DNA of 32,855 nt from Thermoplasmatota archaeon (lineage in GTDB: Archaea > Thermoplasmatota > Thermoplasmata > Thermoplasmatales > Thermoplasmataceae). The stretch spans positions 1-32,855 of the forward strand of contig JAMDBW010000039.1 of the NCBI GenBank assembly GCA_023487765.1. Reading direction: 5' to 3'. Made by a program: the position numbers and the translations under genes. Positions 8,220 to 30,219 of this stretch are shown here, piece by piece. The notes under the pieces were generated by a model. The model was given only the letters and a program-made list of their open reading frames with translations, did not search any database and was not told the origin of the DNA. Position 1 is the stretch's first letter; every line of letters begins with the position of its first letter.

Positions 8220-9824
8220 TTGATAGTTCTCGGTCTGGAAGGGACAGCGCACACAGTGAGCTGTGGAATCGTTGATGAGGGCCGCATACTCAGTAATTCT
8301 TCCAGAACTTATCACAACCCGAATGGGGGCATACACCCGAGGGAGGCGGCAGTTCACCACGCTGAGAACGTACACGACGTGATAAAGGAGGCACTCACCT
8401 CTTCCGGAACCTGTCTCCCCGATATAGACCTCATATCGTATTCAAGGGGACCCGGTCTTGGCCCGTGCCTGAGAATCGTTGCTACCGCTGCACGGAGTTT
8501 AGCAATAAAGTCTGCGAAACCAATAGTGGGTGTGAATCACCCGCTGGGACACGTTGAGATCGGAAGGAAACTGACAGGAGCCGGCGATCCGGTTATGCTT
8601 TACGTCTCTGGGGGTAATACACAGATTATATCCCATATAGCCGGGAGGTATCGGGTCATGGGAGAAACGATGGACATCGGGCTCGGGAACCTTCTGGATA
8701 AACTAGGAAGGGACCTTGGTTATCCTTTTCCAGGCGGGCCGGCAATTGAAAAGCTGGCAAAGGACGGTGCTAAGCTTCTCAGTCTGCCGTATTCGGTAAA
8801 GGGGATGGATACCTCCTTTTCAGGAATATATACTGCCGCAAGAGAACTCCTGAAAAAAGGTGAACGCGCGGAGGATGTCTGTTTCAGTGTACAGGAATAT
8901 ACTTTTTCCATGTTACTGGAAGTGCTTGAAAGAGGTCTTCATCAAACTTCAAAATCAGAGATTCTTCTTGCCGGGGGCGTTGCCAGGAATCAGAGACTGC
9001 GCGGCATGATCAATGATCTCTGTTCCGATCTTGGAATCAAAGCTTATGTCACTGACGATGCATACTGCATGGACAACGGAGCCATGATCGCTCAGGCCGG
9101 GCTGCTGATGTTTAAAAACGGGATGCGCGACACAGTGAATACCGCAACAGTCGATCAGAGATACAGAATTGACGAGGTCGAAGCACCATGGATCAGCGGA
9201 TCAGACAGGGAAATAGCGGAGTATCGTGGTGCTGAATCGCTGATTCAGAAGGGGGAGTTCAGGGGGAGACCAATGATCAAGAAAATCAGGATCGCCAAGA
9301 AATACAGAAACCCTGATCTGGACAGGACTATCAGAACTGAAAGACAGAGAAACGAGGTCGGCCTGATTCTCAGGTTTCAGGATGCGGGTGCCCGGACACC
9401 AGTGATTTATGATGTGGATACGGAAGAATTGAGCGTGACTTACGAGGAAATTGAAGGCCACACACTCAGGACTTTTATCCTGAACCGGGAGAGAAATTTA
9501 CACAATATGCTGGTCTCCATAGGATCTGGAATAGGAAAGGTGCATAGTTTAAAAATGACGCACGGTGATCTCACGACTGCAAATATTCTAATCTCACCTG
9601 ATTTCGAGGCATACTTCATTGACACCAGCATGGGGAAGAGTGATTCCGGACCGGAGGATATGGCCGTTGACCTTTTCCTCTTCATGGAATCTTTAAAGGC
9701 TTCCTCCACCGACTCGGACGAACTTTTTGGAGAGTTCATGAAGGGCTATAAGTCCGCTTACGGGAAATGGAGTGAGGTTATGGAGACTATGGGTCGCTTG
9801 GAACTGCGGAGGAGATACGTCTGA
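8220..9824 (+). CDS. Kae1-Bud32 fusion (tRNA t6A KEOPS subunit plus kinase domain)
   Basis: Kae1: GLEGTAHTVSCG, HPREAAVHHA, NHPLGHVEIG, YVSGGNTQI. Bud32: IKKIRIAKKYRNPDLDRTIRTERQRNE and GDLTTANILI..FIDTSMG. TTG start with TTATATATTTA about 30 nt upstream. Confidence 0.95.
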   Translation: MIVLGLEGTAHTVSCGIVDEGRILSNSSRTYHNPNGGIHPREAAVHHAENVHDVIKEALTSSGTCLPDIDLISYSRGPGLGPCLRIVATAARSLAIKSAKPIVGVNHPLGHVEIGRKLTGAGDPVMLYVSGGNTQIISHIAGRYRVMGETMDIGLGNLLDKLGRDLGYPFPGGPAIEKLAKDGAKLLSLPYSVKGMDTSFSGIYTAARELLKKGERAEDVCFSVQEYTFSMLLEVLERGLHQTSKSEILLAGGVARNQRLRGMINDLCSDLGIKAYVTDDAYCMDNGAMIAQAGLLMFKNGMRDTVNTATVDQRYRIDEVEAPWISGSDREIAEYRGAESLIQKGEFRGRPMIKKIRIAKKYRNPDLDRTIRTERQRNEVGLILRFQDAGARTPVIYDVDTEELSVTYEEIEGHTLRTFILNRERNLHNMLVSIGSGIGKVHSLKMTHGDLTTANILISPDFEAYFIDTSMGKSDSGPEDMAVDLFLFMESLKASSTDSDELFGEFMKGYKSAYGKWSEVMETMGRLELRRRYV

Positions 9825-22104: not shown

Positions 22105-22629
22105 ATGTTGAGGATATTCATAGCGAGTTCCATTGATCGATTCCCGGGTTTAACTCCGCTTATTGAGGAACTGGAAAGCATAAAAGGTAGCAGACCGGTC
22201 AGGACCCGCGAACTGCATCTCACCTTCAGTTTCATAGGCGAGATATCCGGGGCTGAGCTGCGCGTGATTCAGGATCGGTTTGCCGAACTTCAGTGTGACA
22301 GGTACATTCTGAAACTTTCAGGACTGGGGTCATTCCCCGCTGCCGGCAGGGCAAGAGTTCTGTTCATCAATGTTGAACAGAACGCGGAGATCATGGAAAA
22401 CTGGCTGAAAATATCCAGCTTAACGGGAAATACGGTATCGCCTGAAAGGGAATTCATTCCCCACATAACCGTCTGCAGGTTCAGGATTCCATGTGACACC
22501 CGTCCCCTCGTGACGAAATACAAATATATGGGTTTTACACAGCAGATCCAAAAAATATCAATATTCAGGAGCGTTCTTTCAGGAGACGGCCCGGAATACG
22601 ACGAGATCTGTGCGCTTCAATTGAAGTAG
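22105..22629 (+). CDS. thpR: RNA 2',3'-cyclic phosphodiesterase (2H family, LigT/ThpR)
   Basis: Two HxTx motifs (LHLTFSFIG; PHITVCRFR), MLRIFIAS. Confidence 0.93.
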   Translation: MLRIFIASSIDRFPGLTPLIEELESIKGSRPVRTRELHLTFSFIGEISGAELRVIQDRFAELQCDRYILKLSGLGSFPAAGRARVLFINVEQNAEIMENWLKISSLTGNTVSPEREFIPHITVCRFRIPCDTRPLVTKYKYMGFTQQIQKISIFRSVLSGDGPEYDEICALQLK

Positions 22630-24263: not shown

Positions 24264-24947
24264 ATGGTTAATGCCAATTTTCTCAAGAAAATAATGGTTG
24301 TTGGAGAAAAAAGCGTGCTTCAGCAGCTTACCCGGTTTATAGACCTGGCAGTTGACTCTACAGGGGCCCTCAAAGAGATGCTGATGACAGAGGAAAACAA
24401 GAAGAGCCAGCTTAATGATAAAATAAAGTCCATAGAGAAAAAGGGCGACACACTCTGCATGACAGTTAAGCAGCATATAACGGGTGGAGCAATAAGCTCC
24501 AACCTGATGGATAATCTTATTACTCTTGTTGAAACCTGCGATGACCTGCTGGATAAATCCTATTTCGTCAGCCGTGAATTCAAGCGCGTTCATGAAAATA
24601 AACATAAGTTTGACGACCAGGCCAGAGCCATTCTGAGGGATGGATATGACGTCTGCGTGAAAATCCTTGATAATACCCTTATAGCCCTCGGGGAGGTCAG
24701 GATATTGCTTGAATCCAGGGACACAAAAGACATGCAGGAATCCAGGGCAAAGATAGAGATTCTTGAGGAAAAAGTTGATGATCTGAAGGATAACCTGATT
24801 GATGAAGTATACAATAATGCAGACAGTTTACCATACCTCATTTTCATTCACCTGATAGAGCTGGCCCATAAACTCGATGACATGCTGGATGACTGCGAGG
24901 ATATCTCTGATCTTGTGCAGACCATTAACATCTCGATAACCAGGTAA
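24264..24947 (+). CDS. DUF47/PhoU-like Pit accessory protein
   Basis: KSIEKKGDTLCMTVKQHI.., ELAHKLDDMLDDCEDISDLVQTINI; immediately upstream of a Pit transporter; GGGGAGGG SD. Confidence 0.92.
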   Translation: MVNANFLKKIMVVGEKSVLQQLTRFIDLAVDSTGALKEMLMTEENKKSQLNDKIKSIEKKGDTLCMTVKQHITGGAISSNLMDNLITLVETCDDLLDKSYFVSREFKRVHENKHKFDDQARAILRDGYDVCVKILDNTLIALGEVRILLESRDTKDMQESRAKIEILEEKVDDLKDNLIDEVYNNADSLPYLIFIHLIELAHKLDDMLDDCEDISDLVQTINISITR

Positions 24948-24948
24948 A

Positions 24949-25848
24949 ATGTTATACAGTTATCTCATCATCCTGCTTTCAGTGGTACTGACCGCGCTGG
25001 TTTCGGGAAACAACCTGTCCGCAGCGGTGGGAACACTCATAGGCTCCAGAATCGTCTCGAGGATCGGAGGTATCATAATCGGGATACTCGGCTTCACTTC
25101 CGGTCTCCTGATACAGGGGGAAAGTCTCGCTGACACCGCGACGAAGCTGATACCGAGATCCAGCGAAATCATAGTATTCGCACTTCTCATTGCCCTTATC
25201 ATTTTTGCGCTGGCCACATACTTCCGTGTTCCGCTTTCACTGATCATGGCACTGGTGGGAGTCTCAATAGGGCTTTCATACAGATTCGGGTATCCCGGGC
25301 ATACCTACCTGATCAGGATAATAATTCTGACGTGGATAATTGCACCTCTGGCTTCAATAGCCCTGGCATTTGTCATGAACAGGAAACTCACAGGCCTGCA
25401 GCCCAGAAACGTCTGGAATTTTGCATTATCATTGAAACTGGCACTTGTGGCAGTATCCTTCCTCACCGCATTTACACTGGGCGCCAACACGCTCGGCTTC
25501 ATAGAGCAGATATCCGGACTGAACGGCTTCGGCGTGATTTACATGATCATCGGCATCATCCTGGGATCAGTCTTCCTGAGCAAAGGCGTAATCAGGAGAG
25601 TCGGGCAGGAAATGTATCTCATGCGATATACCAATGCTTTTGTGGCGCTGATAGTCTCCTCCGCGCTTGTTGAGGGAGCGACACTGATCGGACTACCCCT
25701 CAGTAACACCCAGACCCTGACCTCCAGCGTTTTCGGAACCGGACTTTCTTATCGGAACAAGCTCATGGAGATCAGGCCTTTTCTGATCACTGTTGCCACC
25801 TGGATACTGTCTCCGGTGCTTGGTGTAATATGCGGACTACTGGCCTGA
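24949..25848 (+). CDS. Inorganic phosphate transporter (PiT family)
   Basis: VSGNNLSAAVGTLIGSRIVSRIGGIIIGILGF, GLPLSNTQTLTSSVFGTGL, multiple TM helices. Confidence 0.92.
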   Translation: MLYSYLIILLSVVLTALVSGNNLSAAVGTLIGSRIVSRIGGIIIGILGFTSGLLIQGESLADTATKLIPRSSEIIVFALLIALIIFALATYFRVPLSLIMALVGVSIGLSYRFGYPGHTYLIRIIILTWIIAPLASIALAFVMNRKLTGLQPRNVWNFALSLKLALVAVSFLTAFTLGANTLGFIEQISGLNGFGVIYMIIGIILGSVFLSKGVIRRVGQEMYLMRYTNAFVALIVSSALVEGATLIGLPLSNTQTLTSSVFGTGLSYRNKLMEIRPFLITVATWILSPVLGVICGLLA

Positions 25849-26652
25849 CAGAGGATCGTAGTCGAATATGGTGGTTTTGGATATTTTCTCCATATAATTA
25901 TAGAATTGCCTGATGAAACGGCGCCTGTACTCATCGAAATTCGTCGGGTAGTACAGGTACTGTCCCCTTGACTTGAAAACTCCCGCACCGACAATATTCC
26001 TGACAAGGTCCTGGAAATCCCTTCTTATCTGGTCCTTTCTTATCCCGATTGAGTTTTCATAGGCGTCATTCAGGCTGTGCGCCATGATTAGATTCCTGTT
26101 TATCGGCGGTTTGAGGAGCAGGTTTCTTGTGAGGAATAGCGACTTGATCAGCGGATCAAGATCCGGGTGATACGGTGAAGGGAAATTGATCATTCTTGGA
26201 GCTTCCGCGCTGGCCAGCCTCACTACGGCTTCGAATCCTTCCGTCGATCCTCCCGTGAATTTAAGAGTCCCTGACGGTACATTCATGGAAATTGCCGGAT
26301 TCTGGCTGTCGCCTGCGGTTTTTACGGTCTTTCCCGGAGCGAGGAGCTTAACTGCCCTGATTCCGGATCCGAACCTTTCCTGCAGCCCGTCAATTATTTC
26401 AGTCACTATGGAACGTTCCGGAGCTTTTCTGTCTTCAGAGAAAGTATAGAAGAGGAAATTCCCGATTTGCATCGCACCGGATCTCCTGCCGGCGAGAATG
26501 TACCATGCAGGCGAATGAAGACCTAATTCCAGCGGCATCAGGCCGGTAATTTCATGCCCGGCCTGCAGCCTTGAGAATACCTCGCTTATTATTGTGTGAT
26601 TGTTGAGATTTGTGCGGAATGCCGCATTCCTGTCACTGTAAGTTCTAGTCAT
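25837..26652 (-). CDS. Uncharacterised protein, 271 aa
   Basis: Long intact ORF. 8-nt overlap with the next upstream gene on the same strand suggests translational coupling. C-terminus KTTIFDYDPLSGQ. Confidence 0.75.
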   Translation of the reverse strand: MTRTYSDRNAAFRTNLNNHTIISEVFSRLQAGHEITGLMPLELGLHSPAWYILAGRRSGAMQIGNFLFYTFSEDRKAPERSIVTEIIDGLQERFGSGIRAVKLLAPGKTVKTAGDSQNPAISMNVPSGTLKFTGGSTEGFEAVVRLASAEAPRMINFPSPYHPDLDPLIKSLFLTRNLLLKPPINRNLIMAHSLNDAYENSIGIRKDQIRRDFQDLVRNIVGAGVFKSRGQYLYYPTNFDEYRRRFIRQFYNYMEKISKTTIFDYDPLSGQ

Positions 26653-27502
26653 TTTGAATCAGCCTTTCCGTGACATCCATCAGTTTTATGCCGAAATCCA
26701 GTCGCGTTTCCGACTGGAAATTCAGGAGAACGTGGCCTTCATCAACCATTATGCTGCCTCTCTCGCCGGATCTGCCAGTGAAAGCTATTCCGTAAGGGGG
26801 ATAAGGCCTGAATGAACATTCACGCGCGAAATGTGAAGATAATGCGGAACTCAGGCTCATGATGTTCTTTACTCTCCCGCCTATCTCCATCGGCCTGACT
26901 ATGGCAACATCGTCATCGTTTCTCTTTGGAGTGAATGCCCGGAACACATCCTCGTACACCCGGCTCTGTCCCATGACTCCCGCCGACATTTCGAATATCA
27001 GCCCGGCACTCCCGGCATCGGGATTATGCAATGTGAAGGTCATTTCACTGTCTACGTGGATTCTGCAATCTGAATTTGCAAAACCAAAACTGACCGGCCA
27101 CCTGGAGAGGTCGCCTGATGCCTCGAGCCACATCTTCTCCGCCAGAGACGGGTCGTCCATCACGTTGCTGACAGTCGCGTCTCCCCTGGACAGGGTCAGG
27201 CCTGTCATGGCGTATCCGTGTTCAGCGGCCAGCCCGGGGAACATCGAGAATGTTCTGGAAAATACCCGGATCCTGTGTACCTGGCCTGATGCAGCAGATG
27301 TGGAAAGATAACGTTCATTTTGTGCCATAGCCACTTTGAAATGTTCCTGCACAGGTATCATGAACACCCTCGGGGACTGATTCTGCATCGTGAGAGGGCT
27401 CGTGTCTGAGGCAAAAAATAACAGTCTGACATAAACACGTCCCTTCCTTCCGATTATGTTTATGTTCTGGCTGAAAAGCTCCATGAATTCTTCCTTGTTC
27501 AA
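26645..27502 (-). CDS. Uncharacterised protein, 285 aa, apparently beta-rich
   Basis: Long intact ORF coupled to the 25837-26652 gene; no family recognised. Confidence 0.75.
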   Translation of the reverse strand: MNKEEFMELFSQNINIIGRKGRVYVRLLFFASDTSPLTMQNQSPRVFMIPVQEHFKVAMAQNERYLSTSAASGQVHRIRVFSRTFSMFPGLAAEHGYAMTGLTLSRGDATVSNVMDDPSLAEKMWLEASGDLSRWPVSFGFANSDCRIHVDSEMTFTLHNPDAGSAGLIFEMSAGVMGQSRVYEDVFRAFTPKRNDDDVAIVRPMEIGGRVKNIMSLSSALSSHFARECSFRPYPPYGIAFTGRSGERGSIMVDEGHVLLNFQSETRLDFGIKLMDVTERLIQND

Positions 27503-27565
27503 CTCATGAAAGTAAGCGAGCGACGCTAAAAAAAATTTGTATCCGTAATCACGAATGCGACAGGT

Positions 27566-27988
27566 TCACAGATCGCCGTTCGCGAGAAAATCCCTGATGT
27601 CATCGTCACTGTACGGACCTTCCACGGCTACCGGGAGCATAATAGGCTCTTCGACAAAGCCACCGTCTTCATATTCCTCCGATATATTCTCCAAATGCAC
27701 TTCAAAAGTGTCAGGATAGGATTCTGTTGTTTCATCTTCCAGTTCACCTTCTCTGGCGTACACTTCGTCAAACCAGATTATGTAACAGTGACCTCCGAAT
27801 TTGTACACTTTCCTGTGGTCTGAATCCATGCTCAGCTTGCTGAGGCTGTTCTCTGTCAGCAGCCCGTAAATGTAGCCCACCAGGACAGCCTCCTGAAATG
27901 TGCCCTGCCCGCCGTACTCTTCGTCTCCGAGGGTATGGAATTCGGACATTATTTCATACAGCAGCCTTGCATCAAGTTTCAACGTCAT
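27566..27988 (-). CDS. Uncharacterised acidic protein, about 140 aa
   Basis: Intact ORF; ATG at 27988 preceded by GGGTGATC, an SD match (listed ORF starts at GTG 27994). Glu/Asp-rich C-terminal half. Confidence 0.75.
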   Translation of the reverse strand: MTLKLDARLLYEIMSEFHTLGDEEYGGQGTFQEAVLVGYIYGLLTENSLSKLSMDSDHRKVYKFGGHCYIIWFDEVYAREGELEDETTESYPDTFEVHLENISEEYEDGGFVEEPIMLPVAVEGPYSDDDIRDFLANGDL

Positions 27989-28145
27989 GATCACCCGGGT
28001 CCGGGAACTGTTCTCCCCTTATCCTCAGATATTCCTTATGTCCCGATCATTGTAAAACTTATTCACTTTGATTTATGTTCGAAAGAAATCTCAAATCAAT
28101 TATATATTCAATGATACTGATTGTTCTGTGCAGGTGAAAGCGACC

Positions 28146-29378
28146 ATGAAGATTCCGGCATCTCTGTGCCTGAGATGCAGAGGCGCCAAGATGTTATGCG
28201 GCCTTTCATACTGCCCGATATCGGTAAAGTACATGACGCAGCCCGGCCTGAAAATGGTCAGGGGGAACACACTCAGCGGAGCGTCTCCTCCAAGTATCTT
28301 CGTGGGAAGATACGGCTATCCTAAAGTCAAGATGTATCCTTCGACTCCCCTGGTTCACGGTGATACTTCCCTCTACGAAGACCCCAAGGAATGGATGAAC
28401 ATTCCTCTCGAGAAATTTCTCTCAATGAGGCTTTCCATGATCAGGGGCGGTGTGGACGTTGAAGTGGGCCAGGCTGTTGATCCCACGAGACTTTTCCATG
28501 AAATACAGCTCATGGCTCTTTCTGAGAAATCTGTCGAGGTGGAGATGGTGCTGGACAGAAACATTTCGGACAAAGATGTCATACTGGATGAACATACTCC
28601 CCCAATGGGCCCGTCGGCACCGGTCAGGAAATTTACTGCAGATTATTCAGCACCGGACCTGCACATGGAAAAGGTGTACGGGGATACCGACCTGAAGGCA
28701 ATGGATGCCATGATCTATCTGTATTCCAGCGGACAGGATGTTTCCAAAATTTCCAGGATACTGAGCGTTGGCGCGGTAGGCCAGAAAAATTCCAGGAAAG
28801 TTGTCCCGACCAGGTGGTCAATAACCGCCGTTGACAAGAACCTCTCGGATCACGTTGTTGAAGACGTTAAGGACTACAGGCAGATAGATAAATTCATCGC
28901 ATTTGTGAGGGGGACTCCCGGAAATCTTTTCATGGCTGTGCTCACCCCGTCCAACTGGATATACGAATGGGGAGAGTCCTGGTTTCCGGGCAGCACGTGG
29001 AACCAGTGGGGAGAAGAGGCATACGTGGAGATTGACGATGAGGGTTATTACGGCAGGACCGATTATCCGGGAATAGGGGGCTGTTATTATTCAACAAGGC
29101 TTGCAACGGCAGAAAAATTCGCTTCAATGAAGAGAAGCGGCGGAGCAATAACCTGGCGGGAAATTTATCCCGGTTTCAATCTCCCGGTAGGAGTATGGTA
29201 CGTCAGGGAGAACATGAGGGCACTCTTCAACTCGGATCCCGTTGAATTCGATACCCTTGACATGGCACTTGCGTATATTTCCAGGTTCATGAAGGTCCCC
29301 CTCCAGAAGTGGACTGCAAAATCAAATGTGGTCAAGACCCTGAAATACAACAATCTTGACAGGTTTTTCATGATCTGA
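28146..29378 (+). CDS. Nre family archaeal DNA-repair protein (NreA/B) with N-terminal zinc finger and C-terminal PIP-like motif
   Basis: CLRCRGAKMLCGLSYCPI zinc motif; SPPSIFVGRYGYPKV, VPTRWSITAVD, GEEAYVEIDDEGYYGRTDYPGIGGCYYSTRLA, PVGVWYVRENMR; ends YNNLDRFFMI. Start may be GTG at 28134. TATA-like at 28100. Confidence 0.92.
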   Translation: MKIPASLCLRCRGAKMLCGLSYCPISVKYMTQPGLKMVRGNTLSGASPPSIFVGRYGYPKVKMYPSTPLVHGDTSLYEDPKEWMNIPLEKFLSMRLSMIRGGVDVEVGQAVDPTRLFHEIQLMALSEKSVEVEMVLDRNISDKDVILDEHTPPMGPSAPVRKFTADYSAPDLHMEKVYGDTDLKAMDAMIYLYSSGQDVSKISRILSVGAVGQKNSRKVVPTRWSITAVDKNLSDHVVEDVKDYRQIDKFIAFVRGTPGNLFMAVLTPSNWIYEWGESWFPGSTWNQWGEEAYVEIDDEGYYGRTDYPGIGGCYYSTRLATAEKFASMKRSGGAITWREIYPGFNLPVGVWYVRENMRALFNSDPVEFDTLDMALAYISRFMKVPLQKWTAKSNVVKTLKYNNLDRFFMI

Positions 29379-29379
29379 G

Positions 29380-30219
29380 ATGAAAATCGTAGAATATGAA
29401 GCGAAAAAGGGAATTTCCAGATCGAATTTGCCCGAACTGGATTACGCTGTGAATCCCTACAGCGGATGCCAGCACAGGTGTCTCTACTGTTTCGCCATAA
29501 ACTTCACCTCCGTGCCCGAAGCCAGGGAAAACTGGGGAAAAGTTGTGTACGTCAAGACGAATATCGTGAAATTATTAAAACGGGAAATAAACGGCATGAG
29601 GCGCGGAACTGTCGGCATTTCCACCATAACTGATCCGTATCAGCCCGCGGAAGCGATATACCGGCTGACAGGGAGTGCTGTTGAACTGCTGGCAAAAAAC
29701 GGGTTTCGTGTAACCATCCAGACCAAGTCCCCGCTTGCGAGGAGGGACATGGAAATTTTCAAACGCTACCGGAACAGCCTCGACCTTGGGGTGACAATAA
29801 CTACTCTCGACAGGAAAAAAGCCCTGATAATTGAGCCACAGACGCCGTCTCCTCAAGAAAGAGCCAGATTGCTTATGGAACTGAAAGAAGAGAAAATCCC
29901 TGCGTGGATATTTCTGGGTCCGATAATCAGGGAATTCAACGATAATTACGAGAATCTGGATGGAATTTTCTCCCTTGCCTCCATGACCGGATCAAGAGTG
30001 ATCTATGATTTCTACTCCCAGTATGACGGATCGAAGGAACTGATGATGAGAGAATTTCCCGGATATGTTTCCGGCGAGGCGTTTCATGGTGATAGATCAT
30101 GGCAGTCCGGAGTCACGAAATTGATCGAGAACATGGCAGGGGAGTATTCCGTGAAATGCAACAGCCAGGCCGATGAATGGGTGGCCTCCAAAACGCAGGC
30201 CGGCCAGAGTTTTCTTTGA
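29380..30219 (+). CDS. Radical SAM protein, SPL (spore photoproduct lyase)-related / COG1533-like
   Basis: NPYSGCQHRCLYCFA (C-x3-C-x2-C), ISTITDPYQPAE, TIQTKSPLARRDME. Starts 1 nt after the nre stop codon. Confidence 0.92.
   Translation: MKIVEYEAKKGISRSNLPELDYAVNPYSGCQHRCLYCFAINFTSVPEARENWGKVVYVKTNIVKLLKREINGMRRGTVGISTITDPYQPAEAIYRLTGSAVELLAKNGFRVTIQTKSPLARRDMEIFKRYRNSLDLGVTITTLDRKKALIIEPQTPSPQERARLLMELKEEKIPAWIFLGPIIREFNDNYENLDGIFSLASMTGSRVIYDFYSQYDGSKELMMREFPGYVSGEAFHGDRSWQSGVTKLIENMAGEYSVKCNSQADEWVASKTQAGQSFL

Follow-up and report, generated by a model that had tools for sequence, protein, structure and literature searches.

Genes A and B, which lie next to each other on the minus strand of the DNA analyzed here, form an obligate two-gene unit (B–A), previously unnamed, that occurs in a single family of acidophilic archaea. 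The C-terminal tail of protein A resembles, at the level of sequence, the tails of the PCNA clients Hef and Fen1 in the same family. We put at roughly even the chance that B–A encodes a lineage-specific, clamp-associated A–B complex of Thermoplasmatales-like archaea, which would act on DNA without being an enzyme itself, adapting or regulating a step of replication or repair.

The window, a 32,855-nt stretch, is one contig from the genome of a Thermoplasmatales-like archaeon (G000; family f1, genus g1) that is 70% complete; labels beginning with G, L, f, and g (for example, G050, L021, f1, and g1) are our handles for genomes, loci, families, and genera. From left to right, the relevant part of the window contains PhoU-like and Pit genes (plus strand), genes A, B, and C (minus strand), and Nre and radical SAM genes (plus strand):

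24264–25848, plus strand: PhoU-like (DUF47) and Pit phosphate transporter genes (PF01865, PF01384)
25837–26652, minus strand: gene A, 271 aa; ORF with homologs in family f1 and an AlphaFold2 model
25858–25878, minus strand: PIP-like tail of A, K259-T-T-I-F-D-Y265, assigned from motif conservation
25948–26154, minus strand: winged-helix-like region of A, about residues 167–235, helix-helix-helix-strand-strand in the model
26645–27502, minus strand: gene B, 285 aa, upstream partner of A; ORF with homologs in family f1 and a structure model
27566–27988, minus strand: gene C, 140 aa, acidic; ORF with homologs in 8 genera
28128–29378, plus strand: Nre protein, NreB type, 416 aa (PF04894/PF04895; start placed by alignment)
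29380–30219, plus strand: radical SAM protein, SplB-like (PF04055; adjoins Nre in 69 loci)

The PhoU-like and Pit genes are the context of A and are not put forward as its partner. All three minus-strand ORFs described in a first-pass annotation of this DNA were present, as was the 8-nt overlap between A and B (26645–26652); B and C are spaced by 63 nt. The annotation had placed A, B, and C in no recognized family, and this assessment stood: the three window proteins gave no convincing family match in Pfam, NCBIfam, PADLOC, or PHROGs, the members of their homolog alignments were without a Pfam match, and searches with PDB sequence profiles matched nothing. Codon comparison of the window with its closest relative (L021) gave dN/dS values of 0.17 for A, 0.18 for B, and 0.075 for C, with values of 0.02–0.08 for most neighboring genes; A, B, and C are all under purifying selection. 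These low values, together with homologs of A in 42 genomes, of B in 43, and of C in 25, indicate that all three are real genes. Elsewhere in the window, a LigT-like gene (22105–22629) was the fastest-diverging of the compared genes (dN/dS 0.26), and the ORF at 8220–9824 reads, as judged by eye only, as a Kae1-Bud32 fusion in which an ATPase is followed by a kinase-like domain.

Distribution and gene order of B–A and of gene C

The 43 genomes in which we found the B–A unit all belong to family f1 and represent 12 of its 19 genera. An initial set of 33 loci all had B immediately upstream of A, on one strand and usually with an overlap, and this order was seen again in all later loci with enough contig, including those of G049, G050, G051, G057, and genus g6. 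A profile of B recovered the same genomes as A except for G093, where the contig ends, and G050, in which A escaped detection at first and was afterwards found beside B. The unit is essentially single copy and is retained within genera. Comparison of the A and B profiles detected no homology between the two families (probability 0.5%). B–A is tail-to-tail with Pit in five genera (g1, g4, g6, g16, and g17), upstream of glutamine synthetase in four (g9, g11, g18, and g19), and beside neither gene in g7 and g8. The two genes thus stay together in the same order whatever surrounds them. A and B would be two subunits of one complex, and we infer a direct A–B contact.

Homologs of C were found in 25 genomes from 8 genera; the family has a pI of 4.1–4.2 and 16 invariant alignment columns. 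Associations were tested across the 77 genomes of family f1 by the presence or absence of B–A, C, and the NreB–radical SAM pair. C co-occurs with B–A above expectation (odds ratio 7.2, p=6e-4, a value that carries no correction for phylogeny) and lies within 4–6 kb of B–A in g6 and g7. C is a small acidic protein and a possible, not obligate, companion of B–A, to which it may be an accessory. In g4 (L128–L131), C is located away from B–A and beside a very long protein, the start of which (AVSEIIGAILLFAIASVLL) resembles a signal sequence of the archaeal pilin type.

The C-terminal tail of protein A

The tail of A, exemplified by the peptide EKISKTTIFDYDPLSGQ with core T-I-F-D-Y, follows the consensus (mostly K/R)-x-[ST]-[LI]-[FYL]-D-[FYW]. 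The sequence [ST][LI][FYL]D[FYW] occurs in the last 15 residues of 40 of 40 complete A C-termini, and of a 41st from G050; none of the 724 other ORFs with a length of 150 aa or more has it. Proteins with as little as 15% identity to the window A still carry the tail, and 0–8 residues follow the motif in complete proteins. D264 of the tail is the most conserved column in A, and the tail holds four of the top eight. The hydrophobic position 4 and aromatic position 7 of a PIP are represented by [LI]-x-D-[FYW] in 41 of 41 complete C-termini. At PIP position 1, the 40 tails have K (29), R (7), P (3), or F (1), so 36 of 40 have a basic residue there, and the canonical glutamine is absent from every A tail. 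The tail is flexible in the AlphaFold2 model, in which the last block has a pLDDT of 51 compared to 85–97 in the preceding blocks, and A proteins are basic (median pI 9.0).

Tails of Hef proteins from the same family include QKTIFDF (from G097), KMDLFDFE, KKDLFDFS, and similar sequences; they place a nearly identical motif at the very C-terminus and, like A, several lack the glutamine. Fen1 tails in the same genomes are mostly Q-x-[NS]-L-D-S-F-F. When six genomes were scanned for T-[LIMF]-[FY]-D-[FY], A and Hef were the only credible proteins that ended in this motif. The proteins differ in that Hef is an SF2 helicase (NF010337, 1.1e-92), whereas A has no helicase domain. An interaction between Hef and PCNA has been reported in Thermoplasma acidophilum (PMC7776575). 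Archaeal PIP motifs sit at the extreme C-terminus, and degenerate PIPs, which depart from the canonical sequence, are not necessarily weaker binders (PMC6881253). The Hef tails as a set (L239–L251) are very variable PIP-like sequences, many without Q, which suggests relaxed PIP rules for the clamp in this lineage. RfcL proteins in genomes of the family have no such tail, and most of the RNase HII proteins have no full PIP tail; clamp clients in these archaea are thus not uniform. We dropped the RNase HII and RfcL tails as yardsticks for a PIP, as they mostly lack a full tail and were uninformative.

Non-core archaeal PCNA clients, such as NreA, NucS/EndoMS, and TIP, are likewise lineage-restricted or archaeal and are linked to the clamp through a terminal PIP (PMC4929162). 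A differs from these proteins in having K or R rather than Q at PIP position 1, in that our searches linked it to none of them by sequence family or by a confident fold, and in being invariably paired with a second unrecognized protein.

Predicted folds and possible functions of B–A

The model of A (pLDDT 88.3, pTM 0.84) consists of an N-terminal alpha/beta domain, a winged-helix-like C-terminal region, a long last helix, and the tail. Foldseek found no confident match to this model in the PDB; the winged-helix-like region gave a weak match to the winged helix of E2F/DP, with a probability of 0.84 but an E-value of 0.53. The model of B (pLDDT 87.8) contains repeated antiparallel alpha/beta elements and had no confident Foldseek match in the PDB or among viral models. 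Its recurrent weak matches include TBP entries and bacterial and phage RdgC, the latter with probabilities of 0.84 in the PDB and 0.87–0.99 among phage proteins but E-values of 8e-4 to 0.05 and TM scores of 0.24–0.32. Since TM scores reach only about 0.3 and B has no sequence homology to RdgC or TBP (no Pfam or PDB sequence match), this likeness is a lead and not homology. Neither the A nor the B alignment contains a conserved set of catalytic residues, which argues that an A–B complex would be non-enzymatic.

In the reading that we favor at about even probability, A would dock on the sliding clamp PCNA through its PIP-like tail (K/R-x-T-[LI]-[FY]-D-[FY]) without the canonical Q, and B, as the constant partner of A, would probably add DNA binding. 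Positioned at the clamp, the complex would then act on DNA during replication or repair, in an adaptor or regulatory role. The main weakness of a tether to the clamp is the absent glutamine, which is missing in every A. The tail-less RfcL and the incomplete tails of most RNase HII proteins also weigh against it, as do the lack of a solved structure confidently like A or B, with the RdgC and TBP likeness of B being weak, and the possibility that the binding partner of the tail is B or some other protein.

The same folds could be taken to mean that B and A are a pair of transcription regulators, with the tail of A contacting the transcription machinery or B rather than PCNA. The E2F/DP match of the winged-helix-like region and the appearance of TBP among the weak matches of B point in this direction, but every fold match is weak, and the tail of A is similar to those that clamp clients carry in these organisms. 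We know of no transcription-factor motif that the tail resembles. The neighborhood also varies among genera, such that no constant candidate target adjoins B–A, and on balance we consider a transcriptional role unlikely.

Two features of B–A would fit a host conflict system, acting in defense or counter-defense: A and B diverge fast relative to most of their neighbors (dN/dS 0.17–0.18 versus 0.02–0.08), and their distribution over 12 of 19 genera is patchy. Both genes are nonetheless under purifying selection and occur as an essentially single-copy unit that is retained within genera. Moreover, PADLOC and PHROGs gave no match, the window A protein, used as a query, found no relative in viral contigs, and no mobile-element context was seen at most B–A loci. 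A conflict system is therefore very unlikely.

The Nre–radical SAM pair and its relation to B–A

The annotation of the plus-strand neighbor as Nre was borne out by strong matches to both domains (PF04894 [Nre_N], 4.7e-95; PF04895 [Nre_C], 1e-34), and the protein has the N-terminal Cys4 motif (CLRCRGAKMLCGLSYCP). Its C-terminus, YNNLDRFF, is PIP-like with Y in place of Q; the PIP of NreB has been described as less clear-cut (PMC4929162). Alignment with relatives places the Nre start at a GTG at 28128, a start conserved as 'RTGCAGRTG'. The divergent layout of C and Nre is real; with this start, the gap of about 145 nt given at first is corrected to 139 nt. A TATA-like element is present on the Nre side, 20–28 nt before the Nre start, making separate promoters likely for the two sides. 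As each side looks like a core promoter of its own, we did not accept the intergenic region that they share as a sign of co-regulation.

The radical SAM gene starts 1 nt past the Nre stop, as annotated, and encodes the expected C-x3-C-x2-C core (motif CQHRCLYC; PF04055, 6.9e-11). The protein is SplB-like and has this core of the SPL-related class; its best curated match was to the PA0069 family and fell under the cut-off. The protein resembles both the PA0069 and Rv2578c families, in each case below curated cut-offs (NF033668, 3.9e-35), and phmmer found no relative of solved structure.

Of the 117 genomes of the order, 108 have Nre. Among 117 Nre loci order-wide, 69 have the radical SAM gene as the next gene downstream, including 59 of the 60 Nre genes that are at least 48% identical to the window Nre. 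The tight coupling of the two genes proposed at first is thus real and very strong. Unpaired Nre genes are more distant (about 31–38% identical) and are often a second paralog. Across genomes, retention or loss of NreB-type Nre goes along with that of the radical SAM gene; G048, G049, G055, G058, G059, and G070, for example, have only the distant Nre paralog and no such radical SAM gene. The adjacent Nre and SplB-like radical SAM genes of the window are the published NreB–SplB pairing of archaea (Giroux and MacNeill, reviewed by MacNeill, PMC4929162) and are not new, with nothing notable to set them apart beyond the near-perfect pairing counted over 117 Nre loci. Joint retention of NreB and the radical SAM gene goes beyond the published 'in a number of genomes', and their near-constant pairing in the order bears on the published question of whether the arrangement is a relic or functional.

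The first-pass annotation had joined all five genes into one co-regulated DNA-damage module at a shared divergent promoter. Gene order gives this proposal some support, as Pit-A-B-C-Nre-radical SAM is kept in g1, g16, and g17 and A-B-C-Nre-radical SAM in g12, and both Nre and A have PIP-like tails. The co-occurrence data, however, argue strongly against a five-gene island. Among the 77 genomes, 33 have both B–A and the NreB–radical SAM pair, 10 have B–A only, 27 have the pair only, and 7 have neither, which corresponds to no association (odds ratio 0.86, p=1); within family f1, C and the pair are also unassociated (odds ratio 1.2, p=1). B–A adjoins the Nre–radical SAM block in 13 of 43 genomes, from four genera. 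C adjoins Nre in 14 of the 25 genomes that have it, again from four genera only (g1, g12, g16, and g17), and is located elsewhere in g3, g4, g6, and g7. The annotation's own check, conserved co-localization of the three unrecognized genes with nre and SPL in related genomes, went against it: such co-localization is confined to these four genera.

A natural empty site occurs in g10 (L126 and L127), where PhoU-Pit stands beside Nre-radical SAM-phosphoesterase, with Pit directly adjoining Nre, and A, B, and C are absent. Genera with the local linkage also keep the order of the long flanking block FtsJ-GcvH-LigT-MarC-PhoU-Pit. Because this block is equally syntenic, the linkage of A, B, and C to Nre is mostly background. 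With no co-occurrence, flanks that are just as syntenic, and a TATA-like element of its own on the Nre side, a co-regulated five-gene module is highly improbable. The annotation's suggestion of genome maintenance gains independent support for B–A, through the PCNA-binding-like tail of A, but not for the other genes. The NreB–radical SAM pair stands as a module of its own and should not be studied together with B–A as one island, and B–A would work independently of this pair.

The clamp-associated complex can be drawn more specifically as a new heteromeric clamp accessory with a novel combination of folds, in which a saddle-like or DNA-encircling B and a winged-helix A would be held on PCNA by the Q-less PIP tail, a version that we consider unlikely. 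If it is true, this single family of archaea uses a heteromeric clamp accessory for a step in replication or repair that is handled in another way elsewhere in the archaea. The known set of archaeal PCNA partners outside the core enzymes is incomplete (PMC4929162). B–A is a testable addition to it: two proteins of no recognized family, inseparable across 12 genera, with a tail that looks like those that bind the clamp.
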